Origin: Effrenium voratum
Lineage: Eukaryota; Sar; Dinophyceae; Suessiales; Symbiodiniaceae
DNA length: 64,000 nt
Assembly: GCA_963377175.1 (NCBI GenBank)
Contig: CAUJNA010001001.1
Span: forward strand, 147,050 to 211,049
Direction: 5' to 3'
Shown here: positions 17,584-39,381 of the stretch, one piece after another
How the letters are laid out: each line of letters begins with the position of its first letter
Position numbering within the stretch: position 1 is the first letter of the stretch
The notes under the pieces: generated by a model
The model's database searches: none
Seen by the model: the letters and a program-made list of their open reading frames with translations, nothing else
What the model was told of the DNA's origin: nothing
Program-made: the position numbers and the translations under genes

Positions 17584-17834
17584 AAAAAATAGAAGAAGTA
17601 GGGGGCCTGGGGGGAAGTCTGTTGAGGGTTGCCTGTTATGGTTTTTATGTTCATCTCAAATCTATGTTCCCCCTTATTCGTTTTGAAAAGAGGGTTTTTA
17701 GGGAGCTTATTTATCGTTTTCGTTAAGGTAATCATTTGGGTAAATTGTCGCCTTGTTCATTGTTGGGCTAGGGGCAAACATTTTTTCATTTGAAAGAGGT
17801 AGCCCTTTTAGTAGTTATCAAGTTCTGGGGTGTT
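17584..17834. repeat. Left terminal inverted repeat of the PLV
   Basis: The 251 bp from AAAAAATAGAAG inward are the reverse complement of 39,131-39,381. The outer 160 bp (17,584-17,743) show no difference to my reading. The inner 90 bp carry several substitutions and small indels, a sharp change in identity. TIRs are where protein-primed replication starts and where an rve integrase acts. Confidence 0.9.
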
Positions 17835-17943
17835 GGCGGTGCATTTGTTTTGTTAGTATGTTTCTCATTAATTTTCATTTATAGGTTAAACGTTCAGTAT
17901 AATTATAACATATAAGATTTTACATGTTATTATTATAGTATGA

Positions 17944-18201
17944 TTATAATCCCAATACAGGATAATAATTTAATTGATTTGTCTTACTTCTTTCATACAC
18001 CATTTTAAAAATAATATTAATATCTCTCACTGTATTTTGAACATTAAACTTTTTACTTTCAATAAATAATTTGATATTTTCTTTAACATCTTCTCCTTTC
18101 TCTTGACTATAACCCAACATCCATAATATATCATCAATCATGTCATATTTTCTTACTGATTTTGAGAAATGCTCTAACATAACTATGAGGTGGTATTTCA
18201 T
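17944..18201 (-). CDS. Hypothetical protein, 85 aa
   Basis: Outermost left gene of the element, just inside the TIR. It is a small helical-looking protein with no cysteines and no recognised domain; it starts MKYHLIVMLEHFSK and ends in a Tyr/Pro segment. Only 45 bp separate it from the upstream 72-aa gene on the same strand, so both are probably transcribed from the motif-bearing promoter near 18,500. AT-rich codon use matches the other element genes. Function unknown. Confidence 0.55.
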   Translation of the reverse strand: MKYHLIVMLEHFSKSVRKYDMIDDILWMLGYSQEKGEDVKENIKLFIESKKFNVQNTVRDINIIFKMVYERSKTNQLNYYPVLGL

Positions 18202-18246
18202 ACACAGTTAAAAATATCAAAATGTCATCTTCAACATTTCTTTCAT

Positions 18247-18465
18247 CTATTTTTTTAATCTCCAAAAATTTTCTATCATATTTTGATATCGTCTCCATCT
18301 TCTACAAGTTCTACATACATCTTCTTCACTCAGAGCATAATCAGTAATATTATTTACTATTCCATTAGGTAAATTCAATTTGTATAATTCCATATTTTCT
18401 TTTTTGAAGTGGCAACAATCATAGCATTTCTTATTAATATAACTGTTGATTTCATCATAGTTCAT
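18247..18465 (-). CDS. Small Cys-rich protein, 72 aa, with F-box-like segment
   Basis: Contains CYDCCHF near residue 14 and CRTCRRW near residue 52, a spacing that could bind one zinc ion. Between them LPNGIVNNITDY resembles the start of an F-box-like LPxxIxxxI motif, also seen in the proteins at 34,340 and 38,233. The promoter has the 15-nt element AAAACTACTTAAAGA on the minus strand (18,494-18,508), 43 nt before the start, and a CATATTAAG box next to the ATG. The region from this start codon back to 18,562 is a near copy of the promoter of the 174-aa gene at the other end. Function unknown; a host-interaction role is a guess. Confidence 0.6.
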   Translation of the reverse strand: MNYDEINSYINKKCYDCCHFKKENMELYKLNLPNGIVNNITDYALSEEDVCRTCRRWRRYQNMIENFWRLKK

Positions 18466-18562
18466 TTTTCTCTTAATATGTTATGCTATTTTTTCTTTAA
18501 GTAGTTTTGACTAGGGGGTTGCTGGTCAGCTGGTCTGGGTTTCAGGTTTAATTTAAATGTCT
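18462..18562. repeat. Subterminal inverted repeat, left copy
   Basis: About 100 bp, reverse complement of 38,138-38,236 with only a few differences. It spans the start codon, the TATATTAAG-type box, the 15-nt promoter motif and an upstream block with GGTCTGGGTTTCAGG. It lies inside the TIRs and is separate from them. Confidence 0.85.
18494..18508 (-). promoter_or_regulatory. Conserved PLV promoter motif (gene at 18,465)
   Basis: AAAACTACTTAAAGA on the minus strand, 43 nt upstream of the start. Identical motifs precede four other genes of the element. Confidence 0.75.
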
Positions 18563-18687
18563 GTGTGAGCCAGACCTTGCTGTGCGAGCCAGACCTTACT
18601 GTGTGAGCCAAACCTTGCTGTGTGAGCCTGACTGTGTTGTGTGAGCCTGACTGTGTTGTGTGAGCCAGACCTTGTTACTTGAGCCAT
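18561..18687. repeat. 19-bp tandem array
   Basis: About six and a half copies of CTGTGTGAGCCAGACCTTG with point changes, directly abutting the left subterminal inverted repeat. No counterpart is seen at the right end of the element. Confidence 0.85.
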
Positions 18688-18690
18688 TCC

Positions 18691-18885
18691 TCCCCTTAAT
18701 TGGGGAGTTCTCCCCTTAATTGGGGAGTTCGCCCCCCCTTAATTGGGGAGTTCGCCCCCCTTAATTGGGGAGTTCGCCCCCCTTAATTGGGGAGTTCGCC
18801 CCCCTTAATTGGGGAGTTCGCCCCCCTTAATTGGGGAGTTCGCCCCCCTTAATTGGGGAGTTCGCCCCCCTTAATTGGGGAGTTT
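18691..18885. repeat. 22-bp tandem array with CCCC/GGGG hairpin units
   Basis: Nine copies of TTAATTGGGGAG plus TTCGCCCCCC, the first spaced 20 bp and the rest 22-23 bp. Each unit can pair CCCC with GGGG around TTAATT, and both strands carry regular G-runs, so G-quadruplex or i-motif structure is possible. The last copy runs into the truncated methyltransferase frame and supplies its stop codon. There are no variable spacers, so it is not a CRISPR array. Confidence 0.9.
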
Positions 18886-18984
18886 ACCCACCGTTTTCAA
18901 ATCCAATGATATAACATTATAACCGAGCGACTTTGCTACTTTACCAACTGAAGAAGTACCACTAAATAGTTCTAATAAGTGCAT
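18871..18984 (-). pseudogene. Truncated DNA methyltransferase remnant (N-terminal 37 codons)
   Basis: An ATG frame on the minus strand reads ELFSGTSSVGKVAKSLGY followed by NVISLDL. This matches the N-terminal S-adenosylmethionine-binding motif I and following helix/strand of site-specific DNA methyltransferases (pattern LF-G-G-S-x-x-K-x-x-x-x-LGY-x-V-x-S-D). The frame ends at TAA contributed by the first unit of the 22-bp array, so the catalytic part is missing. It lies just downstream of the GIY-YIG gene on the same strand, as if once co-transcribed. It suggests the ancestral virus carried a methylase lost by deletion or array expansion. Short length is the main uncertainty. Confidence 0.6.
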
Positions 18985-19004
18985 ATATTATTAGAACTAT
19001 TTAG
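18962..19004. terminator. 16-bp perfect hairpin at the GIY-YIG gene end
   Basis: CTAAATAGTTCTAATA at 18,962-18,977 pairs with 18,989-19,004 around an 11-nt loop. It overlaps the stop codon of the leftward GIY-YIG gene, and the methyltransferase remnant's ATG falls in the loop. A likely transcript-end hairpin. Confidence 0.65.
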
Positions 19005-19561
19005 ATATTAATATTTTCACATACATATCGTTGATGTTTTTCAGTTCTCTCGTGTCTTCTTATATCACATTTCCTGAAAACACCACCACATTCACATTCA
19101 ATAGGTTCTTTTCGTTTTTCCAATATTGTTTCTTTGTTTTGGTGGTAGTGCTCCCTACTTTTATTACATATATGTTCTTTGTTGTTTTCTGCGTATTCCT
19201 TCCTCATATTTTGATAGTGTTCCTTATTGTCTTCCTTCCACTCATTAATTGTTCTACCTACCACACATCTATTCACACAATCATTATTTTGAATGTAATA
19301 ACCTTCTCTTTTCATTAACTGTTCTCTGTTTTCACATGGGTAGTCTTCTAATAATTCAATCTTACAGTTGTCCATTCCATATTCATCAAACAACAAACGA
19401 CAGTTTGTTTTATTATTCCATTGTTCTGCCTTGTTATAATTTTGTCTATGTCTTGCCATTCTTTGGCTCAAGCTTTCACAGGTGCTTCCGATGTAGCACT
19501 TATTATAACCAACATCTGTTATTTTGTAAATCTTTGCGTTTTTATATTTACTGCTATCCAT
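19001..19561 (-). CDS. GIY-YIG endonuclease with C-terminal zinc finger, 186 aa
   Basis: The N-terminal nuclease domain shows IYKIT (residues 11-15) and CYIGST (22-27), followed by the expected Arg at 34, and a later GMDNCKIELLE segment. A charged linker with NNKEH-type repeats follows. The C-terminus has CECGGVFRKCDIRRHERTEKH, a C-x-C...H-x5-H putative zinc-binding tail of a kind common in giant-virus GIY-YIG proteins. Such enzymes cut DNA and often act as homing nucleases; here it could also serve replication or repair. It starts 23 bp after the end of the polymerase gene on the same strand. The second GIY-YIG (30,501) shares the same tail. Confidence 0.85.
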   Translation of the reverse strand: MDSSKYKNAKIYKITDVGYNKCYIGSTCESLSQRMARHRQNYNKAEQWNNKTNCRLLFDEYGMDNCKIELLEDYPCENREQLMKREGYYIQNNDCVNRCVVGRTINEWKEDNKEHYQNMRKEYAENNKEHICNKSREHYHQNKETILEKRKEPIECECGGVFRKCDIRRHERTEKHQRYVCENINI

Positions 19562-19584
19562 TAATAACCTTAGTTATCTTTTCT

Positions 19585-22500
19585 TTAACGCAGTTTATAA
19601 TGTCCATAAGGCAGTGAATTGAAAGCATCAATGTAAAACCTTTTATTTTCATAATTACTGAGTGATTGCTTGACTTGAGACATTGAAAATAATTGATGGT
19701 TGCGACTACGAATAAAATTATATGTTATTTCATGCTTTTTGTTTTGAAATAATGCTTCGTGGTAGTTTTGGTAAGTCAGTTCTTTCTTCACCTTGTGTTT
19801 CACTACACCTTTTGATTTCTTTTGTTCTTCTTCTTCACCGTGTATTGTAAAAGCATACGATTTGGGCTTTAACCCTATGAATTGTGTTATTGTTTGACCG
19901 TTGCACTCATCCTTGAAATAACCGAGTTTTTTCTTATTTGTTTTGTCATGGCAGGGGTGTTCAGGTGGATAATCGCTAAAGTCCATATATTGGTTTAATT
20001 CTTTGAAGTCCTTGTAGATGTCCTCAGTGAATGTTTGAATTACATAACTGTCAGTATCAGTATAAACCAGTTTGATGTTTTCATTGTATTTCTTCTTAAG
20101 AACATCATAGTAGAACTGATACATATGTAATTTACTGATGTCAAGGATTGTCATTCCTAAGAAAATCGGTTTGTCCAGTTTCAGCTTCGCTTTAGTTTTT
20201 TCAACTCCTACAAGGTTTTCATTAATAATAAATCTATTTTTGAATGTTGGATTATTAACACATTTTTCGTATCTAACTTCATTATCAACTAATTCAAAGT
20301 CCATATGATTTCGTTTGTCTTCCATAGTTTTTCCATACACAGAATTATTCATTAATTTGAATAAATCTTTCTCAAAATCGCTTTTGGCTTCTTTCCTTTT
20401 ACCAGTGTTAAAATCAATCCACGGTTTCAACCATGCCCTCTGTTGAAATTTTATTATCCTATGGACTTTTGTCATTTTCATTCCCATTTTCAAATAATAC
20501 TGTAAAGTCTTGATATGAACCACATATTTTTCTTTATCCTTTAGATTTAATATTAACTTACTTGTTTTCTCATCCTTGGGATTTTTACCATCATAATATA
20601 TTTTGTAGACTTGCTTTTGATAATCGGAAAGCATATTCACATTTACATTCATTATTTCAGGCGCTAGTGGATAGTCAGAGTGGAAGTCGTGCAATGTTTC
20701 GGGATATTCCAAATCAACTTCCATAATATAACCGAACTCATCGTTTTCATTCCATTTTTCAACACTGGGCGTTTTCTTTGCCCACTTGATATTTTTTAGC
20801 GGTAATTTCTGGGACATTGCTAAACCATACAAGTTATTAGCATCCAAGTAGCTAATATAATTTGATGGCTTGTTCTCATCATATGCTTCCTCCATATACT
20901 TATTATTTGCCACCGCTAATTTATGACTTACCTGACACATACCACCTCTCATTCCCTTTTCAACCATCTCAAACATTTCTTGGTCATGCAATTGTTCTAT
21001 TTCAACACCAGTTTTTAGAAGCATCGCGTCCCATGCGAAATTTGGCAACGTATAATAATGAGCGGGGTCTAAACCGTAGTATTCCATACACAAGTCTCTA
21101 AAGTTTTCAAATACATCGGTCAGTAGTAAAACATCAGTTCTTAAATACAAGTCGTGATACTGCCCGAGTGTTCTAATCCCGAAGTGCTTCCATACTTTCA
21201 GTGCCCTTTCATAATCTTTATCACTTACATGTTCCTCACTCAATTTACTGTAAAACGCTTCTTTCGGTGGTAAAGCCCTTTCCTTAAATCTTTCAAAATC
21301 ATCAAAGTAGTCATAGGGATAAATACCCTTATCAGTCAATAAATCCAAATCTTCATCGGTTTTAACATACGGGTTTCTAACGCTGTATCTGAAATTGTTC
21401 TTCCAATTCTCACGCTTTTTATCATCCTCATATTTACTCAACCTGACCAACTTATCCAACGAAGACGATAAGAAACTGAAACTGTCCTTGAAACAAAGAT
21501 TTTTAAAACCAAAGGTTATAAACTTTTCGCTGTTCTGAGCGATACATTCTATTTTAGAATTCTTGTTCAGTTCGTGAGCCTTGTTGATGATTAAGTGGGC
21601 ATCATAGTTTTTAAGGTTATGAAGAAACACAGGGATTTTATAATATCTCATACTAAATCGTAGATTGCAGTCCTCGTGGGCGCATCCTCTATACTGCCCC
21701 GTAAAGTGGCAATGGTCCCAACACTTCTTTTCTCCTTCCTCAAATTTGTTTCCACAAATGAAGCAGTTAGTGGCATTATTGAAGTCCTCCCAGTCCTTCT
21801 CGGTTTCAATACGGTCTTTGTCCTCCTTCATTTTCCTCCAAAACTTCCTCTCTGACTTTATTGATTTTCTCAACAAATTTATCCATACAATCCTGACCTC
21901 TATATAAGTAAGGCTCACTACTTCCGGTTATAGCATTGACTACATTAATCATAAAACCACACGGACGATGATTTTGATATGATGTAGTTTTAGCTTTTGC
22001 CGATTTGCTTTTAACATCAATTGGCACAGTTAAACATTCAAAGTCGGCATAGATTACGAATGGAGCTTTAAGTTTCTTGAAATGGTTTTTGAATACTATT
22101 GTTTCACCTGCTTCTGGCATTTCTATTTTTTGACCCTCAACTGCTAGACATCCTTGTTCTTCGTGTTTCTTTAACAAGTTCTTCGGTCTTGAAACCATGT
22201 GAGCAGGTTCTACAGTGATACTTCTTCGCCTTCATCTTGTTAGTCTGACTACTCATTAACTTATCATAATTTTTGATATAAGCGTAATGGGATTTAACAT
22301 CATCAGTCAATTTAATCAAATCGATTTTGTGTTGTGCTTGTGGGTTGTTGCTTCTTTTGTATAATAAAATAGTTTTACTATTCGTATCGGGGTTTATGTA
22401 ATAAACATTGACCGATATGTGTTTGTTCTGTTCTTCAAATAGTTCAATCTCATCATTACCTACTGGAAAGTCAATATTATCCCATTTGATAAATTTGTCA

Positions 22501-23332
22501 TCTACATATTTCTTATAATGATACATCTCGCAGGGATGGTCTTTTTTGAATAACTCATAAAATCCACATTGAACGGAATATTTAAAACATAAGTCGTCCT
22601 CATTTTTAATGTTAATACAAGCCTTTTTGTTTGCCACCCAGTCGGGCAATGGAATAAAGGATGAACCACGGGTAGGATTGTACCTATCATAACTGATGAC
22701 TAACTTTTCAACTTGACCAAGAACCAATCCCGACTGAATGTATTCGGTTATTTCAATTTGTGTCTCAATGTCATGCCCAATGTTGTTTAAGACGGTGTTC
22801 AACTCGTCGGATTATGAATATTGTATCTTCTGCTTCTTAACCGCCTTTGAATAAGTTCGTTGTCGGGATTTTTGAATGATAAATCGGTTTCCACGATTAT
22901 TTTCATGTTCGGGTTTCTGTTCAGGAATTCGGCCAGTCGTTGCTTCTGGTATTTTAAGTAGGATAAACCTTTCAACCCCTTTAATCTTATATCACTTACC
23001 GAGTAGGTGTTGGCGTATCCCTTGAACGCTTGTTGCTCGTCTGTGATTTTGGACTTGAATCGCTTGACATAATCCTGTAAGGGTCTGCCTCTCGTTAGTT
23101 TTAGATAATTAGCACCTTTCATTAAAAGGCCATGCTTTCTATATCCTTCACTCCTCGCCACTTCCTTGAGTTTCGTGTTCAATACGTTTGAAACTGGTTT
23201 GTTCTTATCATATCTGTAGGTCTTATCGCCTATTTTGAGTTTTTGTGTTTGCCTCCCTTCTTTTTGTATTAGTTCGCCTTGTTGGCTGTTTAAAATGAAA
23301 TCTATAATTTTTCCTTCTGTCGTGGAAACCAT
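19585..23332 (-). pseudogene. polB: Protein-primed family B DNA polymerase, broken by three frameshifts
   Basis: Four consecutive frames make one polymerase: 23,332-22,799, then about 22,800-22,170, then about 22,170-21,825, then to 19,585. Breaks sit near 22,800 (one base apparently missing), 22,170 and 21,825 (one extra each). The N-terminal part is about 400 residues without exonuclease motifs, followed by a CRTC...H...C finger. Exo I is YADFEC near 22,045, Exo II HNLKNYDAHL near 21,610. Polymerase motif A is DANNLYG (about 20,830), motif B NNSVYGKT (about 20,340), motif C YTDTDS (20,047-20,064). All catalytic residues remain. The extra segments between motifs fit the protein-primed (Polinton, virophage, adenovirus-like) type. 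The start is supported by the promoter motif 48 nt upstream. Either a decayed gene or assembly indels. Confidence 0.9.
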
Positions 23333-23360: not shown

Positions 23361-23380
23361 TTTTCTCTTTAAGTAGTTTT
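23361..23380 (-). promoter_or_regulatory. Conserved PLV promoter motif (DNA polymerase)
   Basis: Minus-strand AAAACTACTTAAAGAGAAAA, 48 nt before the polymerase start, with CTTATATTATATAG between motif and ATG. Farther upstream, GGGTTTC and TAGGGGGT words also resemble the subterminal-repeat promoters. Confidence 0.75.
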
Positions 23381-23480: not shown

Positions 23481-23804
23481 TCATAATGCGCATTGTCGCG
23501 AAGCTTGCAAACAAATTTTAGATTTCTTGTGTTTAGATAAATTTGATTTGCTTGATATCGTCCTTCCGCAGTCCTCACAAGTGTAAGACTGTTTTAGGTT
23601 ATTGTTGTAGTAATTCTGGTGGTAGTTCTTCTGGTCGTCCCTCCACCTCACGGGTTGCTCACTGTCATCGCTCGAAGTCTGTTTCTGTTCGCTTATCATC
23701 TGTAAGACTAAGTCGTTTTCTGCTTTCATCAGTTCAACCATCATATCAAATTCGTCATTCGTTATTCTCTGTTTACTATTACCGTTAATAAAAATTCCTG
23801 TCAT
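23481..23804 (-). CDS. C2H2 zinc-finger protein, 107 aa
   Basis: The C-terminal 30 residues contain YTCEDCGRTISSKSNLSKHK followed by KSKIC, a C-x2-C-x12-H-x4/5-C finger able to bind DNA or RNA. The N-terminal half is acidic and Gln/Ser-rich with a predicted helix (EFDMMVELMKAENDLVLQM). The gene has its own copy of the 15-nt promoter motif 37 nt upstream, which overlaps the stop codon of the upstream RS-repeat gene, so it is probably regulated with the polymerase and arm genes instead of the virion genes. A transcription-factor role is inference. Confidence 0.65.
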   Translation of the reverse strand: MTGIFINGNSKQRITNDEFDMMVELMKAENDLVLQMISEQKQTSSDDSEQPVRWRDDQKNYHQNYYNNNLKQSYTCEDCGRTISSKSNLSKHKKSKICLQASRQCAL

Positions 23805-23826: not shown

Positions 23827-23841
23827 TCTTTAAGTAGTTTT
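23827..23841 (-). promoter_or_regulatory. Conserved PLV promoter motif (zinc-finger gene)
   Basis: Minus-strand AAAACTACTTAAAGA, 37 nt before the start at 23,804, with CTAATATAG near the ATG. Its first base overlaps the stop codon of the gene ending at 23,841. Confidence 0.75.
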
Positions 23842-29052: not shown

Positions 29053-30435
29053 ATGGAAACTTTTAGTGCTGAAGATATTCTAATTGACAACCTCTCATTC
29101 AAATTAAATAAAGGTGCAAGTTATATCAACGACCGTCGTTCTGTCTCGTTTTTTCCTTCTGGGAGTAATATCTACACCCCTTCATCTGGTCAACGTGTGT
29201 TGAAAATAGCATTAAATGCTGAAGATAATACTTGGCTTGACCCGCAGAGTGTAATGGTTTATATGACTGTTGAAAACACTGACTCGTCAGACAATAAACG
29301 CTTACGTCCTCTGTCTCCTGCTTATTCCTTTTTTAGAAGAGCAAGACTAATTGCTGGTAATCAACTTGTTGAAGACATTGATTATTACAACCGAAATCAT
29401 CACATGATGAGTTGCATGATGTCAAAAGGAGCAAGAGACAATGAAGACGCCCAGAGTTTTGGTTATAGATATGATGATGATTTAAACACACGTCGTGCAG
29501 TTCCTGCATCGGGTCATATTGGTCCTGCATATGACGCTTACACAATTCCAGGCTTTAACAGAAAAATGGTTGTAGGATTTAAACCGATGCTTGGTTTATT
29601 CAATCAATTTAAGTATATCCCGTTAAAAGCGTGTCCTCTTGTTTTAGAACTTGAACTAGTTTCAAATTTTACTGATTGTGTTGTTTCAGCGGGCGGGTCG
29701 AGGTTTCCAGAAAGTGGCAACGCAGACTCAAGCCTTCATACAAATGAGCAGTTCTCAATTAGTAATGCATTCCTTCAAACTGATTTGGTAAGCTTGGACA
29801 ACGACCTTCATAATAAATATGTTGCACACCTACTTGATGGGAAAGAATTACCTATTACTTATAATACTTACATTTGTCAATCTAATCAAGTTCCCGATGG
29901 TTCGTCGTCAATTAACACTACTGTTGTTCGTTCAGTGTCTAAACTCGCTACCGCGTTCATCTCTTTCAGTAAAAGCGGAGTAGGTGATATTCACGTTATG
30001 AAAGAATACAACAACTTCTATCATCCTATGTATTATTTGAACTACCAAGAAAGCGGATACTACAATCACGACCTTGATTTAGAATTTCAACTTCAATTAG
30101 GGTCAAAACTATATCCTGAGTATCCATGCCGTTCATTAACACAAGCATTCTATTATTTACGAAAAGCATTAAATTTACCATTGTTCCATCAACACCATTT
30201 ATCGATTGAATATTCTGCTTATCGTGTTGATAAGTTTATCTTTGCTATGGATTTCGAAAAGGTTCCCGATAGTTCATATACTGGAATTAACACAAAAGCA
30301 GGGCAACAGCTTTTAATTCGTGTGAAACCTGTTGGAAATATGGTATCAGCAAATATGCCAGACACGATATATATAACATTAGTATCAGAACAAATATTAT
30401 CCATTCGCGATGCAGGTTGCCAGATACTTGATTAA
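29053..30435 (+). CDS. Major capsid protein, PLV-type double jelly roll, 460 aa
   Basis: The protein shows the order typical of PLV major capsid proteins. An N-terminal FPSGSNIYTPSSGQRVLKI precedes TWLDPQSVMVYMTVEN. Next come a PLSPAYSFFRRARLIAGNQL segment and VEDIDYYNRNHHMM. In the second half there are QVPDGSSSINTTVVRSVSKL and, near the end, FEKVPDSSYTGINTKAGQQL. Trimers of this protein would form the icosahedral shell. Length (460) is within the usual range. The frame is intact with no introns, arguing for a recently active virus. It lacks the 15-nt motif seen upstream of polymerase and arm genes and is preceded by A/T-rich hairpin repeats, as expected for a late gene. Confidence 0.92.
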   Translation: METFSAEDILIDNLSFKLNKGASYINDRRSVSFFPSGSNIYTPSSGQRVLKIALNAEDNTWLDPQSVMVYMTVENTDSSDNKRLRPLSPAYSFFRRARLIAGNQLVEDIDYYNRNHHMMSCMMSKGARDNEDAQSFGYRYDDDLNTRRAVPASGHIGPAYDAYTIPGFNRKMVVGFKPMLGLFNQFKYIPLKACPLVLELELVSNFTDCVVSAGGSRFPESGNADSSLHTNEQFSISNAFLQTDLVSLDNDLHNKYVAHLLDGKELPITYNTYICQSNQVPDGSSSINTTVVRSVSKLATAFISFSKSGVGDIHVMKEYNNFYHPMYYLNYQESGYYNHDLDLEFQLQLGSKLYPEYPCRSLTQAFYYLRKALNLPLFHQHHLSIEYSAYRVDKFIFAMDFEKVPDSSYTGINTKAGQQLLIRVKPVGNMVSANMPDTIYITLVSEQILSIRDAGCQILD

Positions 30436-30500: not shown

Positions 30501-31274
30501 ATGCCAGTTAAACCCATAGATTACTCAAAAACTCATTTTTATAAGATTGTTTGTAAAGATTTGAATATCAAAGATTGTTATGTAGGACATACAACCGATT
30601 TTACCAAAAGAAAGTCAAACCACAAACGAGCATATACAAATGAAAATGATAGACACTACAATATTTACTTATACCAGTTTATTCGTGAAAATGGAGGACT
30701 TGATAATTTTGATATGGTTTTGATACAAACAGTGAAATGTGAAAATGGAATGGAGGCAAGAGCAAAAGAAAGAGAATACATTGTAGAACTAAACGCTACA
30801 TTAAATAAAGTGCAAAGACCCATAGTATCACAGCGAGAGGAGCAAGAGAGAAAAAAACAATGGAAGGAAAACAATAAAGGATATGTTAAACAAAGAGACC
30901 ATCAATATTATGAAAACAACAAAGAAAGATACGCTGAAAACTCTAAACAATATAGAGAAAAACATAAGGAAGAACTGAAAGCAAAGAAAAAACAATACTA
31001 TGAAGACAACAAACCTGAACTATTAGAAAAGCAACGGGAGAAATACCAAGAACAAAAAGATGTAGTCAATAAACGAAGTAAGAAATGGAGAGACGAGCAT
31101 AAACCAGAACAACAAGAATATTTCAAACAATATAGAGAAAAAAACAAAGACAAAATGAAAGAATGGAAAGAGACTAAAATCGAATGTCAATGCGGGTCTG
31201 TTTATAGACAAGACCATAAAGCACAACACGAAAAGACTAAAAAACATCAAGAATACATTAACGATAATAATTAA
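30501..31274 (+). CDS. GIY-YIG endonuclease with C-terminal zinc finger, 257 aa
   Basis: THFYKIVCKD (residues 11-20) and CYVGHTTDFTKRKSNHKR (26-43) are the GIY and YIG segments, the latter with Val in place of Ile. A long Lys/Glu/Asn repeat linker follows (residues about 110-225, NNKERY/YYEDNKPE-type repeats). The tail IECQCGSVYRQDHKAQHEKT then KKH repeats the C-x-C...H-x5-H finger of the 186-aa GIY-YIG protein. Sitting between capsid and fibre genes, it resembles a homing-type insertion into the late cluster. Its stop codon begins a perfect 12-bp hairpin. Confidence 0.8.
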   Translation: MPVKPIDYSKTHFYKIVCKDLNIKDCYVGHTTDFTKRKSNHKRAYTNENDRHYNIYLYQFIRENGGLDNFDMVLIQTVKCENGMEARAKEREYIVELNATLNKVQRPIVSQREEQERKKQWKENNKGYVKQRDHQYYENNKERYAENSKQYREKHKEELKAKKKQYYEDNKPELLEKQREKYQEQKDVVNKRSKKWRDEHKPEQQEYFKQYREKNKDKMKEWKETKIECQCGSVYRQDHKAQHEKTKKHQEYINDNN

Positions 31275-31307: not shown

Positions 31308-34088
31308 ATGCCTTCAATAAATTTAACAAACTTTGAGAATGTTGTAGCGCACACAATTAGCGAAATCAATTCTACAAGTGGGATAACAAACATTAGAAAC
31401 ATATATGCTAATCAATCAGATATAATTGATTTACTCAACAATAAAGCAGACCAAGTAGATACTTACACAAAAGCACAGATTGACGCTAATTTTTATGATA
31501 TAAATCAATCATACAATAAGACGGAAGTTAATGTATTATCAAATAATATTAGTTCAAATACATTTTTAATAGGTAATCTAACAATAACTTCAAATACAAA
31601 TTTTAATAATATTTCATCAAATACAAATTTAATAAATAATTTAAATTCTACTATAACATCTAATTTTAATAATATTTCTTCAAATACTAATTTAATTAAT
31701 TCAAATATTAATAATATTTCATCTAATACACATTTAATAAATAATTTGAATTCTACTATAACAACTAATTTTAATAATATTTCTTCTAATACACATTTAA
31801 TAAATAATTTAAATTCTACTATAACATCTAATTTTAATAATATTAGTTCTAATTCTAATTTAATAACAGGATTAAATAGTACAGTCAGTTCACATATTTC
31901 AGCCATATCAGATTTACAGAATGGAGGTTCACTTAATGAAGCAGATTATTATAATAAAATAACGACTAATAATTTATTATCAAATAAGTTAAATACATCA
32001 ATATTAAATAATACATTAATACATAATATAACAACTAATTCAACTTTCAAAATAGCAGAATTTGGAAATTATAATAATTTTTATGAAATGTATAATAATT
32101 ATTTTGATAGTTATGTTTATGGAAATTTAAGTGGAGCAACTATGTTTTTAAATCAAAGAGGTTTTGGAGATGTAGAAATTAATAATTCTTCAACTTTTCA
32201 AAATGATAAAATATTATTAAATCATAATACTACAATATTAAGTAATTTACAAGTATCAGGTTTATTTTCATGTTCATCTATTTTAGATATAGCAGGTTCT
32301 GATGCTCGTTATGTTTTACAATCAGATGGATTAAGTGGATTAATAACGGGAAATACAAATACAATTAATTCAATAATTACAAATGATAGCGCACAAGATA
32401 CAGTAATAAGTCAAAAATTAGACAAAGTTAATACAACATTACAGACAGTGAATTCGCCATTAATTATTAGTTTAACAGATAATACTAATCCTATATTAAG
32501 AATTCAAGATGCTGTAAGTAATCAACGTTTAGAATTTAAAAGAGGTTGTCAGTTGGACTCTTATCAAGGACTAACAGGTGCTACGCCTTATCGATTATTA
32601 CTTGGGTGGAATACGGGAGATGTCATTATTGGAAGGCCTAATAATGCTTCAAGAATTACAATTAATGGTAATGTTCATACTTCATATAATTTTGCGCAGA
32701 TGCACGGAACATCATATTTTGAAGGTGCTGTTTATATGAAAGGAAATTTATTTACAAATAATGATTTTTCAACGGATATTAAAACAAAAATAGATAATAT
32801 CAATACTTCAATAAATGGATTAGAACCATATTTAGAAACATATACACCAGATGCAACAGAAGGTTTTTATATGCATCATCCTAATTTTGTAGCGTGTAGT
32901 GTAGGAGATATAACTAATGCTTCTAACCAATATTTTATGGCTGATGGGCTTGTAGGAAAAACAATTTTTTCCAAGCCTATTGATGTGCTAGGTAATATTT
33001 ATACGAATGCTGATGTTAATTGTGATAATGTTAATATTGCTACTGATGGTAAATTAACAATTGATACAAACTGCGAATTATATAGATATGTTAGTGCTTT
33101 TTCATCTTTTGATATGAGGAATAGCGATGCTAATTCTTCAATTAGATTTATTTGTGGAGACCCCGCTGTTCAGTCTAACATAGTCGGGGCAGTTAATATT
33201 ACCAGTGGATGGACTTTTAACACAAGCACTGTTGATGTTATGGGCAATTTATTTGCTGACGATGTTTATATTAAAACCAATGGAGCATTAAGAAGCAATC
33301 ATTTATCACCCAACGGTGGAACATTAATAACCGTTGATACTAACTTAGCAGTTCAAAATGCTTATTTAGCAACTAATACCATTCAATCATTTGATTTAAC
33401 AACAGTTTCATTTTTAAATAATATTTCAATGACTACTGGAACTGATATTAAAATGGGAACAAGTGAAATATCGACTTATTACGATACTACTAGTTTAAGC
33501 ACTATTGATATAATATTCCGAACATCAAACACAGCTTTTCGAGTTTCAGATGCTTCAAGTACACCTTCAGTTTTATTATCTATTGATAAGACATTTGGAG
33601 CTACCATTAATACTGAAAATTTTACAAATAATGCCTCATCAACATTCAATGAAAATGTAAAAGTTGCAGGAACGAAGAAATTGTTATGTAATTTAATTGA
33701 ACCATCAACAGGAACTAATATAGATTTAACAGCGACAACCGTAACGATTAACGGAACGTTTGTTGATTCATCTGACTCAAGATTGAAATATGATATAGAC
33801 AATATCAAATCTAATTGTATGAATATTATTAAGAAATTTAAGCCAAAGAAGTTTAAGAGACACGATAGAAATGATGGTGGTAAAACTCATATAGGATATA
33901 TCGCAGATGAAGTATTGAAAGCAATTCCTAAAGAGTTTGAAAATATTGTATGTCAGGACAGAGAATATTTAGGATTAAATTATTTAGTTTTACCCGTGTT
34001 GGTTCATAAAGCAGTATTAGAATTAAATGATAAAATAGATAAACTTGAAAAAGAAATTAAGGAATTAAAAAGAGAAAAATCTAAATAA
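31308..34088 (+). CDS. Fibre / spike protein with C-terminal S74 chaperone domain, 926 aa
   Basis: The N-terminal part has Asn/Ser-rich repeats of about 20-23 residues (NNISSNTNLINNLNSTIT type, about residues 75-190), followed by long beta-rich sequence with Asn/Thr/Ser and recurring YYNKITTNNLL/YTKAQID-type segments as in phage tail fibres. The last 107 residues, from DSSDSRLKYDIDNI (820 on) to HIGYIADEVL and YLVLPVLVHKAV, match the peptidase S74 intramolecular chaperone: Ser in SDSRLK is the expected cleavage nucleophile with nearby Lys as partner. A coiled coil ends the protein. Such domains fold trimeric fibres and are then cut off. The likely role is attachment to the host cell. Confidence 0.85.
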   Translation: MPSINLTNFENVVAHTISEINSTSGITNIRNIYANQSDIIDLLNNKADQVDTYTKAQIDANFYDINQSYNKTEVNVLSNNISSNTFLIGNLTITSNTNFNNISSNTNLINNLNSTITSNFNNISSNTNLINSNINNISSNTHLINNLNSTITTNFNNISSNTHLINNLNSTITSNFNNISSNSNLITGLNSTVSSHISAISDLQNGGSLNEADYYNKITTNNLLSNKLNTSILNNTLIHNITTNSTFKIAEFGNYNNFYEMYNNYFDSYVYGNLSGATMFLNQRGFGDVEINNSSTFQNDKILLNHNTTILSNLQVSGLFSCSSILDIAGSDARYVLQSDGLSGLITGNTNTINSIITNDSAQDTVISQKLDKVNTTLQTVNSPLIISLTDNTNPILRIQDAVSNQRLEFKRGCQLDSYQGLTGATPYRLLLGWNTGDVIIGRPNNASRITINGNVHTSYNFAQMHGTSYFEGAVYMKGNLFTNNDFSTDIKTKIDNINTSINGLEPYLETYTPDATEGFYMHHPNFVACSVGDITNASNQYFMADGLVGKTIFSKPIDVLGNIYTNADVNCDNVNIATDGKLTIDTNCELYRYVSAFSSFDMRNSDANSSIRFICGDPAVQSNIVGAVNITSGWTFNTSTVDVMGNLFADDVYIKTNGALRSNHLSPNGGTLITVDTNLAVQNAYLATNTIQSFDLTTVSFLNNISMTTGTDIKMGTSEISTYYDTTSLSTIDIIFRTSNTAFRVSDASSTPSVLLSIDKTFGATINTENFTNNASSTFNENVKVAGTKKLLCNLIEPSTGTNIDLTATTVTINGTFVDSSDSRLKYDIDNIKSNCMNIIKKFKPKKFKRHDRNDGGKTHIGYIADEVLKAIPKEFENIVCQDREYLGLNYLVLPVLVHKAVLELNDKIDKLEKEIKELKREKSK

Positions 34089-34345: not shown

Positions 34346-34855
34346 AAACAAATATGAATAAAATTTACTAATAAAACTTTGTCTTTCATAATTGATGACT
34401 TTAATGGTTATTTTTTTCACTTGTAATGAAATAAAATTAACCATATTACGGTGATACGTGAAATTAGTTTCATAAAGGTCTTTATTAAGAAAATAATAAA
34501 TATCAAATAAATTATTTGATGTTAAAGTACGATTACGAACATGATTCAAACAAGTAAATGAGGTAGATGTAGCTAATATATCGTATTCAATTAATAATTT
34601 TAATGGTTTATGATTTTGATGTAATTTACCTAAGTCGCTTAAGTTAAAAACATATGATATACCATTATTAATATTGATATTATCAATTTCAAAATATTGC
34701 ATATTATTTAATTTGTAAGACTTATACACTGGTTTAAATTTATTAATATATTTTTTAATAATATTATTATTTTTTATTTTTAATAATCTAAAATCATCTA
34801 AAATATACGATATTATTATGTTTTTAATTTCCATTGGTAAATAATAAAATACCAT
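34340..34855 (-). CDS. Hypothetical protein with F-box-like N-terminus, 171 aa
   Basis: Starts FYYLPMEIKNIIISYILDDF, which resembles the opening helix of F-box motifs (LP-x-E-I-x-x-x-I-x-x-YL). The remainder is rich in Asn, Ile, Lys and Tyr with no recognised domain. Large DNA viruses often encode F-box-like proteins that recruit host ubiquitin ligase; whether this does so cannot be told. It starts 17 bp downstream of the ATPase stop on the same strand. Confidence 0.5.
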   Translation of the reverse strand: MVFYYLPMEIKNIIISYILDDFRLLKIKNNNIIKKYINKFKPVYKSYKLNNMQYFEIDNININNGISYVFNLSDLGKLHQNHKPLKLLIEYDILATSTSFTCLNHVRNRTLTSNNLFDIYYFLNKDLYETNFTYHRNMVNFISLQVKKITIKVINYERQSFISKFYSYLFN

Positions 34856-34871: not shown

Positions 34872-35627
34872 TTACTTTATTTTAAATGCTTTTTCAAATC
34901 TAACATAAAACATATTATTAACATCTTTGGAATTCATATTAACATAAAAGAAGGAGTATGGTTTATCATCTACCGCTTTATGATACATATTTAACAGTTG
35001 CTCTTTATCAACAATGGCGGAGTTTTCCTCAATGAATGACATTAACTCTGATACATTCTTTAACTTGAAGATATACAACGAACTAGAATTCAACCTAATG
35101 ATTGGAGCAAGGACACGATATTTTTGAACACTTAAGCAAAAACTAATGGCGTCGTGTCTGCCTCTCGTTGCCAGTCCATGTAATAACTTGCTGTATCTAA
35201 CAAATTTAGGGTCGTCTGCAAAATCATCAACAATGATTAAAATTGAATGTAGTTTCTTCATCTTCTGTTCTTTCATATAATGAATTATCTTTCTTTGTGT
35301 GTTAATTATTTCTTCCAGTTCTTCAGGTTGGTAGGTGTCATAATATAACTTTTCTTTTTCGTCATCAACCTTCATATTATCTTTTTGATATTTCTTGACT
35401 TCAACGAAGGTAGGGTCATTATGAACCGACGGGCTAAAAATGAATATACGGGCGAAGCAGTCCCTATAAACATTTAGGATAAGGTTTTGAATTAAAACTG
35501 TTTTGCCACCCGTTGATGAAGCAACAACAATTGAGCGAAAAGGTAGTTTTGGTACATGTTCATATTTGGATTGTTTGAAATCGTAATCAGTTATATTTAT
35601 TGGTTTTATTATTGGAACATCAGACAT
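34872..35627 (-). CDS. Genome-packaging ATPase (FtsK/HerA, A32-like), 251 aa
   Basis: Walker A is VVASSTGGKTVLIQ (residues 34-47), with Ala36 where the consensus G-x4-GK-T has Gly. Walker B is ILIIVDDF (129-136). A following ATRGRHDAISFCLSVQKYRV segment carries the Arg and the sensor Gln typical of this ATPase clade in PLVs, virophages and large DNA viruses. It would drive DNA into the preformed capsid. Intact, usual length. Divergent from the small gene at 35,680; the two starts are linked by an inverted ATAAAATAAT/ATTATTTTAT repeat. Confidence 0.85.
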   Translation of the reverse strand: MSDVPIIKPINITDYDFKQSKYEHVPKLPFRSIVVASSTGGKTVLIQNLILNVYRDCFARIFIFSPSVHNDPTFVEVKKYQKDNMKVDDEKEKLYYDTYQPEELEEIINTQRKIIHYMKEQKMKKLHSILIIVDDFADDPKFVRYSKLLHGLATRGRHDAISFCLSVQKYRVLAPIIRLNSSSLYIFKLKNVSELMSFIEENSAIVDKEQLLNMYHKAVDDKPYSFFYVNMNSKDVNNMFYVRFEKAFKIK

Positions 35628-36275: not shown

Positions 36276-36575
36276 ATGGAGGAACATTTAGCGAACATTG
36301 ACAGTAGTTTAGAGTTGTTGTTTCCAAGATTAGAAAAAGTGTTGGAGCAAAATGAAAACATACTGAAAATCTTAAAGAGCTTGAATATTAAACCTACATA
36401 TGATAACAATAACAATTATCAAGCAAAAGAAGTAGATAGAGACAGTAGCGAATACAAAAATAAACGAAACATTTATGTTAAAAAACTGAATGAAAAAATC
36501 ATAAAAGAACCTAAACAATCAAGTCTGGATTACTATCAAGTCAAGTATAAAGAAGACACCAAGAAATACGTTTAA
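36276..36575 (+). CDS. Hypothetical protein, 99 aa, coiled coil
   Basis: The first 40 residues form a Leu-rich heptad region (LLFPRLEKVLEQNENILKIL), followed by an Asn-rich linker and a Lys/Tyr-rich end. It converges on the integrase gene, overlapping it by 4 bp. No domain recognised. Confidence 0.5.
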   Translation: MEEHLANIDSSLELLFPRLEKVLEQNENILKILKSLNIKPTYDNNNNYQAKEVDRDSSEYKNKRNIYVKKLNEKIIKEPKQSSLDYYQVKYKEDTKKYV

Positions 36576-37498
36576 TCATTAACTAACAAAATTTCGTGTC
36601 TCAAAAGCGGTTTGTTTATTTCTGCTACTTTGTAAGTTTTATTACCCATAATATCATATTCAATTTTATCGATATTGAATATTTTATTAGACCATTTAGA
36701 GTTATACTCCTTTCTGTCGGTGTAATTACCCCTTTTCTTTTGAAACACTTTTACCTTGTCGTTCTCCACTATTCTGGGATACTTTCTTTTGTTTTTTTCT
36801 CGTAGTTTAAGATTGACCTTTACATTTATTTCATTCTCGTCCTTGTGTGCTTCAGACGGTGTCATCCTTGTTGATGAGTGAGATGTGCTGTTATACTGTT
36901 TCAATGCCGGCGTTAGGGCGTCGGTCCATTTCATGTTGTTAAACCTAACTCTATCGTGAATTTTGTTTTTCATCGTTCTAATAAAACGCTCGGCCACATT
37001 TGCGTGGGTCTTCGTAACGATGTGGTTTATTCCTTCACTGTTGAAGAAATCCTGAACGTGATTTTTAGTTGCAAACGCTCCGTCGTCATCAGAATACACG
37101 GACATCGGATAACCCATCTTTTTAAAGCTTGCTCTCAACGCCTTCAAAACGTTCTCTCCGTCTCTTTCCTCCATCGGTATTACATCTGCTAATTTACTGA
37201 AGATGTCAATCACGACTAAAGCATACTGTGGAACGTTCTTGTCTTTTGCTAAAGGAGACATATGCATTATGTCTATTTGATATTCATATCGTGCGAATGG
37301 AGCGGTATAGGAATTAGTTCCTCTATAATTTTTGATTTGTTTATTTGGCTGTTTCTTTAAGAAAGACTTTACATCGTCTAATGTTATTGTTGGGTCTTCT
37401 TCCTTTGCCTTCTTGTGTGTCGCTTGTGTGCTTCCGAAACCCTCGTCTAAGTCGTAATAGATGTTGCTGATTATTTGGTCTTTTGTTAATCTCGCCAT
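36572..37498 (-). CDS. rve-family (retroviral-type) DDE integrase, 308 aa
   Basis: The catalytic core shows YQIDIMHM (first Asp, residue 76), VYSDDDGAFATKNHV (second Asp, 137-139) and NVAERFIRTMK (Glu170), the D,D-x33-35-E triad of retroviral and Polinton integrases. ALVVIDIFSKLADVIP is the usual strand after the first Asp. The N-terminal 60 residues are a helical region without a clear HHCC finger. The C-terminal 90 residues (VFQKKRGNYTDRKEYNSKWS then KIFNIDKI) resemble the SH3/chromo-like DNA-binding end of Polinton and Mavirus integrases. It would insert the linear viral genome into host DNA. The intact frame suggests recent activity. Divergent from the gene at 37,603. Confidence 0.9.
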   Translation of the reverse strand: MARLTKDQIISNIYYDLDEGFGSTQATHKKAKEEDPTITLDDVKSFLKKQPNKQIKNYRGTNSYTAPFARYEYQIDIMHMSPLAKDKNVPQYALVVIDIFSKLADVIPMEERDGENVLKALRASFKKMGYPMSVYSDDDGAFATKNHVQDFFNSEGINHIVTKTHANVAERFIRTMKNKIHDRVRFNNMKWTDALTPALKQYNSTSHSSTRMTPSEAHKDENEINVKVNLKLREKNKRKYPRIVENDKVKVFQKKRGNYTDRKEYNSKWSNKIFNIDKIEYDIMGNKTYKVAEINKPLLRHEILLVND

Positions 37499-37558: not shown

Positions 37559-37573
37559 AAAACTACTTAAAGA
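37559..37573 (+). promoter_or_regulatory. Conserved PLV promoter motif (gene at 37,603)
   Basis: AAAACTACTTAAAGA, 44 nt upstream of the start, followed by TTATATTAAG next to the ATG. The divergent integrase gene does not have the motif in its own orientation. Confidence 0.75.
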
Positions 37574-37602
37574 AATATTAACTTATTATATTAAGTGAAA
37601 AT

Positions 37603-38064
37603 ATGACTGAAAATGTCGGAGTGATTGCTGACTTATCAAACTGGGTGCTATCAGACGAAGAAGATGATGATAATGACAGTTATAAAAAGGAATTAGATGA
37701 CGAGTTAAACAAAATAAAGGATTTCGTCAAAAGACACCCTTTGCCATCAGTTGATGAAAACGAAGAATTCTGGAAAGATGTTATTAACAGGTTTAGGGAT
37801 AATAGCGGATTAAACTTGATGACAATATACTCATTTGTTAGGTTTGACATCATGAAAGAAATGTATGAAAACCTAACAGATGAAAACATCATAAAAGACT
37901 GTGGTAAAAAGTTAAACCGAGATGGGCAGTTTAATGCTATGATTATTAACCACTATATCTTATCGGGAGCGATACGGAAACTAAACACAGAAGACAGTCT
38001 AGTAGATGGACAGATGCGAATTATTGAATTCTGGTGGGATGGAATAGGTGGATGGAAAGCGTGA
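37603..38064 (+). CDS. Hypothetical acidic protein, 153 aa
   Basis: The N-terminus is acidic (LSDEEDDDNDSYKKELDDEL), and a compact region with aromatic residues follows (FVRFDIMKEMYENLTDENII, and IIEFWWDGIGGWKA at the end). No known family. Strong candidate for early expression because of the 15-nt motif and TATATTAAG box upstream. Its 3' flank (hairpin plus ATATGATTAAAC) resembles that of the following 174-aa gene, so the two units may be duplicates of one regulatory frame. Confidence 0.6.
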   Translation: MTENVGVIADLSNWVLSDEEDDDNDSYKKELDDELNKIKDFVKRHPLPSVDENEEFWKDVINRFRDNSGLNLMTIYSFVRFDIMKEMYENLTDENIIKDCGKKLNRDGQFNAMIINHYILSGAIRKLNTEDSLVDGQMRIIEFWWDGIGGWKA

Positions 38065-38073
38065 GTGATTTAG

Positions 38074-38107
38074 TTTAATGATATTATTCAATTATAATAT
38101 GATTAAA
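38074..38107. terminator. Hairpin after the 153-aa gene
   Basis: TTTAATGATATTAT pairs with ATAATATGATTAAA with one mismatch around a 6-nt loop, starting 10 bp past the stop codon. Confidence 0.55.
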
Positions 38108-38137
38108 CCTAGTTTTTATAATCTAACAATGAGGTTA

Positions 38138-38236
38138 AGACATTTAAATTAAACCTGAAACCCAGACCAGCCGACCAGCAACCCCTAGCCAAAACTACTT
38201 AAAGAGAAAAAGCCTTATATATTAAGAGAAAAATGA
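38138..38236. repeat. Subterminal inverted repeat, right copy
   Basis: Near-exact reverse complement of 18,462-18,562. It covers an AACCTGAAACCCAGACC block, the 15-nt promoter motif and the TATATTAAG box up to the start codon of the 174-aa gene. The proteins that follow the two copies differ, so the promoter alone was copied. Confidence 0.85.
38191..38205 (+). promoter_or_regulatory. Conserved PLV promoter motif (gene at 38,233)
   Basis: AAAACTACTTAAAGA, 42 nt upstream of the start, with CTTATATATTAAGAG before the ATG. Confidence 0.75.
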
Positions 38237-38757
38237 GTAAGGGTAAAATGTCAGAGAATAATTTTATGGATGAGAATTGCGCTAGCTTACCTGAAGGCTT
38301 AGTTTCAATCATCACTACTTACATTAATGGTAGTGAAGGGTGGCGAAGACTGAAACAATGTGATGCTTTAAGAGAATTACAAAGGAAATGGAAACCGTCT
38401 ATTTACACTGAACGAGTAGGAGAAAGTAGATATTATGTTGAGATTCGCAATAAATGCTTAAAAGGTGATAAAGCGCTTTCATATGCGTTGAAACCACCAA
38501 AAGAATTATTAAGAATGATGAAGTATGATGAAGAAATACAGGTTGGAATAGTAGTTAGTTCAAAAATTATGTATAATAATAATATTTGCAACAGTCGTTC
38601 TTATTCATCATCTAAACAGAATAAGATTTCAAGTAGAGCGTCATTACAATACCATATTGAACAAGCAGTTGAAGAAACCAAACAGACTATGAAACGACAC
38701 GAAATCATTACTATCGAACATGTTGCAATTGAAATTTATAGAAAACAGAAACAATGA
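38233..38757 (+). CDS. Hypothetical protein, 174 aa, F-box-like segment
   Basis: SLPEGLVSIITTYINGSEGW near residue 18 resembles an F-box-like first helix, as in the proteins at 18,247 and 34,340. A basic, Ser-rich middle follows, then a helical C-terminus (HIEQAVEETKQTMKRHEIIT). No family recognised. The promoter is shared almost base for base with the left-arm gene at 18,465. A second in-frame Met at residue 6 is possible as the start, but the first fits the usual distance to the promoter motif. Confidence 0.55.
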   Translation: MSKGKMSENNFMDENCASLPEGLVSIITTYINGSEGWRRLKQCDALRELQRKWKPSIYTERVGESRYYVEIRNKCLKGDKALSYALKPPKELLRMMKYDEEIQVGIVVSSKIMYNNNICNSRSYSSSKQNKISSRASLQYHIEQAVEETKQTMKRHEIITIEHVAIEIYRKQKQ

Positions 38758-38766
38758 TTTCATGGC

Positions 38767-38798
38767 TTAATCATAATATTTAATTATAATATGATTAA
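38767..38798. terminator. Hairpin after the 174-aa gene
   Basis: TTAATCATA pairs with TATGATTAA around a 14-nt AT-rich loop, about 10 bp past the stop codon. The right half is nearly identical to the hairpin after the 153-aa gene. Confidence 0.5.
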
Positions 38799-38909
38799 AC
38801 AGTGTAAACTTTTATAACCTTTCATTATACTGTAATTTCAACCTATAAAACATAACTAGACAATCACATAAAAATCACATAAAAAGAAGTTGTTAAGATA
38901 TATTAAGAA

Positions 38910-39146
38910 ATGGTTGTGAAGCAAACTATAATGAATAATTATGGAATGACAGAAGAAAAAGCAACAGAAGACTATGGTGAATTCTTCAAATGCAACAGAT
39001 GTCTTTATGATAAAACAATTGATGAATTTGGAAATGTAAAAAGTGGAAAAAGATATAAATATTGTCAAGAGTGTAGAACGAAAATAAATAATTGTAGAGA
39101 TAAACGTCAAAGAAAACAAACGACCCAGCAACACCCCAGAACTTGA
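38910..39146 (+). CDS. Small zinc-ribbon-like protein, 78 aa
   Basis: FFKCNRCLYDKTIDEFGNVK and then YKYCQECRTKINNCR give a C-x2-C...C-x2-C zinc ribbon. A family with this form (CxxC-x-F-x-x-F, then YC-x-x-CR) is widespread in phycodnaviruses and phages as small DNA-associated or recombination-endonuclease-like fragments; the HNH residues are absent here. The start is preceded by GATATATTAAGAA, the TATATTAAG box without the 15-nt motif. The last codons extend into the right TIR. Confidence 0.6.
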   Translation: MVVKQTIMNNYGMTEEKATEDYGEFFKCNRCLYDKTIDEFGNVKSGKRYKYCQECRTKINNCRDKRQRKQTTQQHPRT

Positions 39147-39381
39147 TAACTACTAAAAGGGTCAACTCTTTCAAATGAAAAAAATGTTTGCCCCCAGCCC
39201 AACAATGAACAAGGGGGGCAATTACCCAAATGATTACCTTAACGAAAACGATAAATAAGCTCCCTAAAAACCCTCTTTTCAAAACGAATAAGGGGGAACA
39301 TAGATTTGAGATGAACATAAAAACCATAACAGGCAACCCTCAACAGACTTCCCCCCAGGCCCCCTACTTCTTCTATTTTTT
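39131..39381. repeat. Right terminal inverted repeat of the PLV
   Basis: Reverse complement of 17,584-17,834. The outer 160 bp match the left copy without difference and the inner 90 bp are diverged (for example AATTGCCCCCC on the right copy's complement against AATTGTCGCC on the left). Confidence 0.9.

Follow-up and report, generated by a model that had tools for sequence, protein, structure and literature searches.

Maverick-Polinton elements are recognised by a protein-primed DNA polymerase B (pPolB), an rve integrase and terminal inverted repeats (TIRs) (PMC12220804; this and the other papers are cited here from parts of their texts). Among polinton-like viruses (PLVs), a 'Dino group' holds most of the major capsid proteins (MCPs) of dinoflagellates, and the study that described it counted 2,535 MCPs in Polarella glacialis (PMC10120064; Bellas et al. 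2023). Dinoflagellate PLVs are also labelled in a later MCP phylogeny (PMC12721341; Haro et al. 2025), and the S. kawagutii element shown in that paper measures 21.2 kb, and S74 genes are ubiquitous across the PLVs of most eukaryotic groups (PMC12220804). In the present work, an endogenous element of this kind was analysed in a stretch of 64,000 nucleotides from Effrenium voratum (contig CAUJNA010001001.1, positions 147,050 to 211,049), called the window below. The element is very probably one copy of a young, high-copy dinoflagellate PLV family whose integrase complex selects oligo-G (oligo-C) tracts with the core NGGGG.

The element spans positions 17584-39381 of the window (21,798 bp). An earlier inspection of the letters alone, the sequence-only reading, had proposed a TIR-bounded unit of 21.8 kb here, and this is borne out by the TIRs, by a 5-bp target-site duplication (TSD), CCCCT, and by the low GC content, which per 1-kb segment is 0.20-0.38 within the element (18001-39000) and 0.46-0.58 outside 17001-40000. 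The outer TIRs had been described as identical, which is correct for the outermost 158 bp and incorrect for the inner half, the alignment of 300 bp per end giving 277 matches in 303 columns. Each tip of the element is capped by six A residues (A6). The features that define Maverick-Polintons, namely an rve-type integrase, pPolB, TIRs and a TSD of 5-6 bp, are all found, the TSD being 5 bp in this case. The same is true for those of PLVs and Preplasmiviricota, that is, a double-jelly-roll MCP (for which the model confidence is modest), a single-jelly-roll penton and an A32-like ATPase. The G-tract landing site had been missed in the sequence-only reading.

To characterise this site, element ends were collected from the host assembly, which comprises 1,155,904,702 bases in 3,699 contigs. 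The TIR search returned 685 candidates, of which 40 were scored, resulting in 30 loci including the window. At 28 of these 30 TIR-located ends, at least 10 of the 12 outer bases are one and the same G or C, a pattern seen at 143 of 42,038 host positions of the window and at 226 of 42,840 flank positions. Further ends were located by the position of the integrase instead of the TIR (20 right ends and the left ends of most of these, one of the stretches requested for left ends falling outside its contig), and another 20 right-end stretches were taken from a lower part of the integrase list, with L078 left out. Ascertainment through the TIR was considered as a source of the G-tract bias and rejected, since part of the ends were located via integrase positions.

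A recognised TIR tip is present at 73 unique ends, window included. This number excludes L036 (same flank as L032), L009 (the left end of the window, among the 30 TIR-located ones) and L072 (reads N), as well as L075 and L077, where there is no element end; of the two stretches examined on C734, L120 holds an element end and L119 none. At 70 of the 73 ends, at least four of the five adjacent bases are the same G or C, at 52 all five are, and at 54 at least 10 of 12 are, compared to 4.5%, 0.59% and 0.23%, respectively, of 39,600 background positions (20 stretches of 2 kb at manually chosen offsets). When one end per insertion is counted, 49 of 52 insertions pass the four-of-five rule and 36 have all five bases. 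The rule holds across TIR subfamilies, with 36/37, 20/21 and 11/11 for the three commonest and 3/4 for the remainder. G-ends and C-ends are equal in number (35 and 35), and the orientation of insertion is therefore free.

The duplications themselves, read on the G strand with one end per insertion, are GGGGG (36 cases), AGGGG (5), TGGGG (4), CGGGG (2) and GGAGG (2). The odd base of the imperfect duplications is at the first position in 11 of 13 cases, while in the background positions 1-5 carry it 383, 278, 328, 285 and 384 times. Outside the duplication, T is tolerated at -1 and -2 (7/35 and 4/35) and A at +1 and +2 (7/35 and 6/35), and G returns at positions 3-4 on either side. The site can thus be written on the G strand as approximately GG(G/T)(G/T)-NGGGG-(G/A)(G/A)GG, with the core NGGGG and symmetric flanks, the latter being what one would expect of a paired integrase active site.

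The two ends of the same copy could be compared in 21 cases, which are the window and 24 pairs minus C3077, C3478 and C3589, for each of which a single end was located, and minus C3612, where the A-run is missing from one of the ends. Twenty of these copies span 20.8-22.6 kb and one spans 39.2 kb. Both ends read complementary letters in 18 of the 21, which means that the tract predates the virus, and 16 are flanked by a 5-bp direct repeat. The impure duplications that match on both sides are CCCCT (the window), CCCCG, TGGGG and GGAGG.

A number of observations have to be set against this interpretation. The neighbourhoods of the ends are also G-rich: at positions 60-200 bp away, the three measures above reach 11.5% (of 9,216 positions), 3.1% and 3.2%. 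The binomial probability of 49/52 is 2e-62 at a frequency of 4.5% and 1.5e-42 at 11.5%, assuming independent insertions. Three of the 73 ends (L048, L080 and L093) fail the four-of-five rule, and among ends with divergent TIRs it is passed by nine and failed by three of 12, where five (L055, L086, L045, L071 and L088) were placed by extrapolation from an alignment starting inside the TIR, and L093 is also one of the 73. Three of the 21 two-ended copies have the same, non-complementary letter at both ends, and five lack the 5-bp repeat. Of the latter, C208 and C3318 have a different TIR subfamily at each end and unmatched flanks, as expected of recombination between copies, C2944 and C1547 may be rearranged, and C3012 has one extra A at one tip. 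Furthermore, all copies examined come from one genome, and that the integrase itself would read the site is deduced from these sequence patterns.

Of the other explanations for the G tracts, the one that survives best is that an integrase without selectivity of its own is tethered or guided by a G-tract-binding host protein or by the DNA structure (A-form or quadruplex) of such tracts. The base bias does extend past the duplication and is seen up to ca 9-12 bases from the end, which is the behaviour expected of a tract-shaped signal. However, the base-level NGGGG core and the symmetric flanks speak for recognition at the cut site, and we regard the tethering scenario as rather unlikely, with the addition that both may act together. 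Random integration, after which insertions in G tracts alone survive selection or are kept, is very improbable. It would be consistent with the large number of copies, with tracts that are possibly non-coding and with the G-rich neighbourhoods, but selection of this kind would fix neither the NGGGG phase nor the symmetric tolerance of T and A in the flanks, and the youth of the copies leaves little time for sorting. The idea that the homopolymer belongs to the element, G or C being added to the ends before random integration, is hardly credible and was rejected: almost every end does adjoin a run of C or G, and the outermost TIR bases are replaced by C in L045 and L055, but the same letter would be predicted at both ends of a copy, contrary to the complementary letters, and the impure duplications are identical on both sides.

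Selection of NGGGG within oligo-G tracts by an integrase complex is thus our preferred explanation. In a more general form, the rve integrase complex of dinoflagellate PLVs would have this selectivity and thereby restrict a numerous family of 22-kb viruses to homopolymers as their niche, which we consider somewhat favoured by the data. The rule may apply to the whole group. An enrichment of Maverick elements at the boundaries of dinoTADs has been described in Breviolum minutum (PMC11071213), and one might speculate that the G-tract rule is linked to it and maybe underlies it.

Turning to the host and the size of the family, DVNP, an established dinoflagellate marker (PMC11071213), gave 30 matches over the family cut-off in the host assembly and none in 14 control genomes. 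The host is thus a dinoflagellate, in agreement with the sequence-only reading. With the MCP as query, 4,419 first-look candidates were obtained in the host assembly, and the best 92, which were scored, are 98-100% identical; 11 of these 92 tie with the top score of the window copy and 85 have no inner stops. For the integrase, there are 3,896 first-look candidates, the best 128 of which were scored at 97-100% identity, with 31 at the top score and 126 free of inner stops. First-look candidates are not confirmed copies, and as the best ones were scored, the share of intact copies tends to be overestimated. Between six MCP loci of the same orientation, the differences amount to 0.07-0.96% across about 4.2-4.4 kb (the rows of L004 and L007, in the opposite orientation, were ignored). 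Because the copies are near-identical, they point to a young family with recent movement, as had been suspected for this insertion from the letters. An assembly chimera is unlikely, because the element family occurs at 52 insertion sites.

P0012, an MCP with 57% identity to that of the window, was also used as a query and gave 4,390 candidates, the best 89 being scored at 58-63%. The matches that were compared by eye sit at places other than the window-type MCP loci, and a second MCP subfamily in the host genome is therefore likely. In a diverged lineage (227 of 278 aligned TIR bases shared), one end of the best P0012-matching locus abuts a C tract. Two unusual arrangements were observed among the copies. 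On contig C3607, positions 215197-254360 (L017 and L016) form a 39.2-kb composite with one left and one right TIR end and two MCP matches in the same orientation 16.8 kb apart, suggestive of a head-to-tail junction of two copies. On contig C3232 (L032 and L036), an identical host flank adjoins two right ends with a distance of 12.6 kb between them, as if an end-bearing stretch had been duplicated.

The features of the window copy are collected in the table. The relative L118 that is referred to there is a 17.4-kb contig from IMG/VR.

Features of the element and its borders (window positions; L118, related IMG/VR contig; ORF, open reading frame)
Feature	Position	Strand	Basis or remark
Left TSD, CCCCT (G strand: AGGGG)	17579..17583		at edge of C tract
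Left TIR	17584..17879	+	first letters AAAAAATAGAAGAAG
72-aa ORF after shared motif	18247..18465	-	F-box-like match 0.0054, below cut-off
Motif ACTACTTAAAG	18495..18505	-	29 nt before ATG of 72-aa ORF
GIY-YIG-like endonuclease	19001..19561	-	PHROG homing endonuclease 4.9e-8; L118 homologue
pPolB region	19585..23332	-	four overlapping ORFs, three frames
pPolB ORFs	22799-23332, 22137-22802, 21806-22198, 19585-21918	-	
Motif ACTACTTAAAG	23367..23377	-	34 nt before pPolB N-terminal ORF
107-aa ORF, C2H2 zinc finger	23481..23804	-	3.3e-5, just below cut-off
Motif ACTACTTAAAG	23828..23838	-	23 nt before zinc-finger ORF
Penton (minor capsid) protein	26579..27433	-	homologues, model, PDB fold match
Lipase-like protein (weak)	27591..28250	+	L118 homologue
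MCP, double jelly-roll	29053..30435	+	homologues, AlphaFold model, fold matches
Second GIY-YIG-like protein (weak assignment)	30501..31274	+	similarity to L118 GIY-YIG region, 3e-4
Fibre, C-terminal Peptidase_S74	31308..34088	+	Pfam 1.9e-10
A32-like packaging ATPase	34872..35627	-	Pox_A32 (PF04665) 2.6e-11; L118 homologue
rve integrase	36572..37498	-	rve (PF00665) 3.7e-9, over cut-off
Motif ACTACTTAAAG	37562..37572	+	30 nt before 153-aa ORF
153-aa ORF, no assigned function	37603..38064	+	
Motif ACTACTTAAAG	38194..38204	+	28 nt before 174-aa ORF
174-aa ORF, no assigned function	38233..38757	+	
Right TIR	39077..39381	-	
Right TSD, CCCCT	39382..39386		exact copy of left 5 bp

Most of the gene calls of the sequence-only reading hold: the rve integrase is confirmed by Pfam, the PLV-type MCP, the penton, the A32-like ATPase and the S74 fibre by fold matches and Pfam, and the ORFs of MCP, ATPase, integrase and fibre are indeed open. 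In the integrase, the acidic triad was assigned by eye to D76, D138 and E170. The MCP has no Pfam match at 0.1 and 474 homologues at E ≤0.001 in the protein database search. Its AlphaFold model is of modest confidence (pLDDT 63, pTM 0.68), and the best fold matches in the PDB are giant-virus capsid proteins, those of PBCV-1 (4.7e-15), with Sputnik at 6.3e-13; despite the modest confidence these matches are strong, and by its predicted fold the protein is a double-jelly-roll MCP. Sequence searches of the PDB with the MCP and the ATPase gave no relevant match, and no likeness of the MCP sequence to virophages was seen in general searches, a search with a virophage set not being made. The penton model has a pLDDT of 87.8 and matches the mavirus penton best in the PDB (6g41, 2.9e-9); this protein has 134 homologues at E ≤0.001. 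For MCP, pPolB and penton, 120 homologues of each were listed, most of them from ENA. One relative in the database, P0120 (561 aa), is an MCP in which an S74 domain (PF13884) replaces the C-terminal part, that is, an MCP/fibre fusion or a deletion. The lipase-like protein is more tentative than had been proposed, as the homologue in L118 has a weak esterase/hydrolase score (0.003-0.005, below the cut-offs) and the ORF in the window is without a significant Pfam match. The Pfam scan, which covered 22 ORFs of the element in the window, found no Ulp1-type maturation protease; a divergent form is possible.

The polymerase needs a separate comment. It had been called as a pPolB, which is upheld through its relatives: those at 63% identity bear DNA_pol_B_2 (PF03175), and the nearest among the matches listed is 97% identical, with 1248 aa. 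What had gone unmentioned is that the gene in the window is divided among four ORFs that lie in three frames. By itself, the 777-aa ORF does not match PF03175, and an Endonuclease_7 match (Pfam, 1.7e-5) lies inside a pPolB ORF. There are at least 7,968 pPolB homologues at E ≤0.001 (scoring covered the 7,989 candidates with the most words in common). Judged by the start coordinates, the pieces of the L118 pPolB that are homologous to the window ORFs share one frame, and the break in the window copy is either decay or a sequence error.

L118 has homologues of the pPolB (60% over the largest piece, 35-48% over the others), the ATPase (51%), the MCP (36.5%), the penton (36%), the lipase-like protein (37%) and the GIY-YIG protein (37%), and bears its own S74 fibre; no integrase match was found in the 13.7 kb examined. 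Since L118 holds these same homologues, the capsid-side set represents a conserved virus genome and not a chance mix. L118 was the one contig found by the penton-alignment scan of IMG/VR, whereas scans with the MCP, the integrase, the ATPase and the TIR pattern found no relative there, a result that counts against the preferred explanation. The lineage and its genes are probably known in kind. The sequence-only reading had taken the gene mix as the mark of a distinct new PLV lineage, which is not sustained in view of the published Dino group (PMC10120064) and the usual presence of S74 in PLVs (PMC12220804). We infer that the MCP may belong to the Dino group.

Five copies of the motif ACTACTTAAAG are found in the window, all 23-34 nt ahead of an ATG and none elsewhere, while 300 first-order shuffles gave a mean of 0.013 and a maximum of 1. 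The motif is not present in the 110 bases upstream of the MCP, penton, ATPase and fibre ORFs, and before the integrase it occurs in the opposite orientation only, as part of a divergent pair. It is probably a shared promoter of early genes. The 34340-34855 ORF and the 174-aa ORF start much like the 72-aa ORF, as judged by eye. An inner inverted repeat of 48 bp, 98% complementary (18515-18562 and 38138-38185, with 19.6 kb between), lies next to the genes with the motif at either end of the element, and paired tandem arrays are located near the left TIR at 18561-18884 (six 19-bp units and 8.8 GC-rich 22-bp units). Ca 2.5 kb to the left of the insertion there is a fragment of a host protein-kinase gene (14639-15100, Pkinase 6.8e-5, below cut-off). 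The tRNA and Rfam scans of the window gave nothing. The dinoflagellate spliced leader in its 15-base form is absent from the window, and its 11-base part occurs once, at 19462, within the viral gene region.

Taken at face value, these genes suggest the following virus cycle. At a G tract, the rve integrase encoded by the element would join both ends over a 5-bp stagger, acting by itself or together with a partner, and such tracts may offer a niche in which insertions are nearly harmless. The pPolB would copy the linear genome by protein priming from the A6-capped ends; such tips would suit a protein-primed start by sliding back, as in phi29 and adenovirus. The ACTACTTAAAG box would drive transcription from the shared, probably early, promoter, and MCP, penton and ATPase would build a capsid bearing the S74 fibre as attachment protein. 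It has to be weighed against this picture that the cycle is deduced from the gene content, and that the pPolB is not fully open in the window copy as assembled.

Two other lifestyles were considered. The element could be a provirophage that stays silent up to infection by a giant virus and is then packaged to the detriment of that virus. PgVV, a distant relative of the Dino group MCPs, coreplicates with a giant virus (PMC10120064), and the presence of a shared upstream motif, ACTACTTAAAG, would agree with such a scenario. However, no helper is known for this element, and the S74 fibre would permit independent entry (as argued in PMC12220804), making this option fairly improbable. It is a good deal more doubtful that the element is an ordinary decaying, transposon-like relic that has lost its virus cycle. 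The split pPolB of the window copy and the recombined appearance of some copies (C208 and C3318) would agree with this, but nearly all scored MCP and integrase matches, which are the best candidates only, lack inner stops, and the near-identity of the copies points to recent movement.

The target rule bears on the puzzle of how such large numbers of viral copies, each of 22 kb, can be tolerated in dinoflagellate genomes. A simple rule for one family can be checked in every dinoflagellate assembly and predicts empty sites and new insertions, and it is a possible cause of the placement of Mavericks along dinoflagellate chromosomes. A homopolymer-preferring integrase would also be biochemically unusual. 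By title and abstract, no earlier report of homopolymer or G-tract targeting by Polintons or their relatives was found, most subscription journals being outside the search. Within this scope, the choice of landing site is the new feature. If the integrase reading is true, this would to our knowledge be the first case of strong target specificity among the rve integrases of the Polinton/PLV/virophage supergroup.

Target preferences are known from more distant systems. Endogenous nimaviruses are also virus-derived and inserted into simple repeats, the sesarmid ones having a Ginger2-like DDE transposase and (AT)n targets, but they are large, unrelated crustacean viruses that use other repeats and mostly tyrosine recombinases (PMC10871703). 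Ginger1 transposons share an integrase-type DDE transposase and a highly specific duplicated target (CCGG in 75%), but are small cut-and-paste elements with a 4-bp TSD (PMC2836005). Closer to the present element, OmPLV, from the genome of the dinoflagellate Oxyrrhis marina, is likewise a PLV of low GC content and encodes MCP, ATPase, pPolB and GIY-YIG; it has a tyrosine recombinase and a helicase-pPolB fusion, whereas the window element has an rve integrase and a plain pPolB (PMC12721341). The cryptophyte rve PLVs have the rve integrase, TIRs and S74 fibres in common with it, but the typical TSD of rve PLVs is 6 bp, compared to 5 bp, NGGGG, in the window family (PMC12220804). Mavirus and the endogenous mavirus-like elements (EMALEs) share the rve integrase, pPolB, capsid genes, TIRs and short TSDs (PMC8547959), and the penton likeness noted above is to mavirus. 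For EMALEs, the sections consulted of that paper report TSDs of mostly 3-5 bp and no evidence of sequence-specific integration, while the present family is strongly selective. Finally, the Dino group PLVs resemble the window element in their dinoflagellate hosts, high copy number, MCP-encoding elements of ca 21-22 kb, TIRs and lower GC content; the sections of PMC10120064 and PMC12721341 that describe them mention no target preference, whereas the family described here is selective for G tracts.

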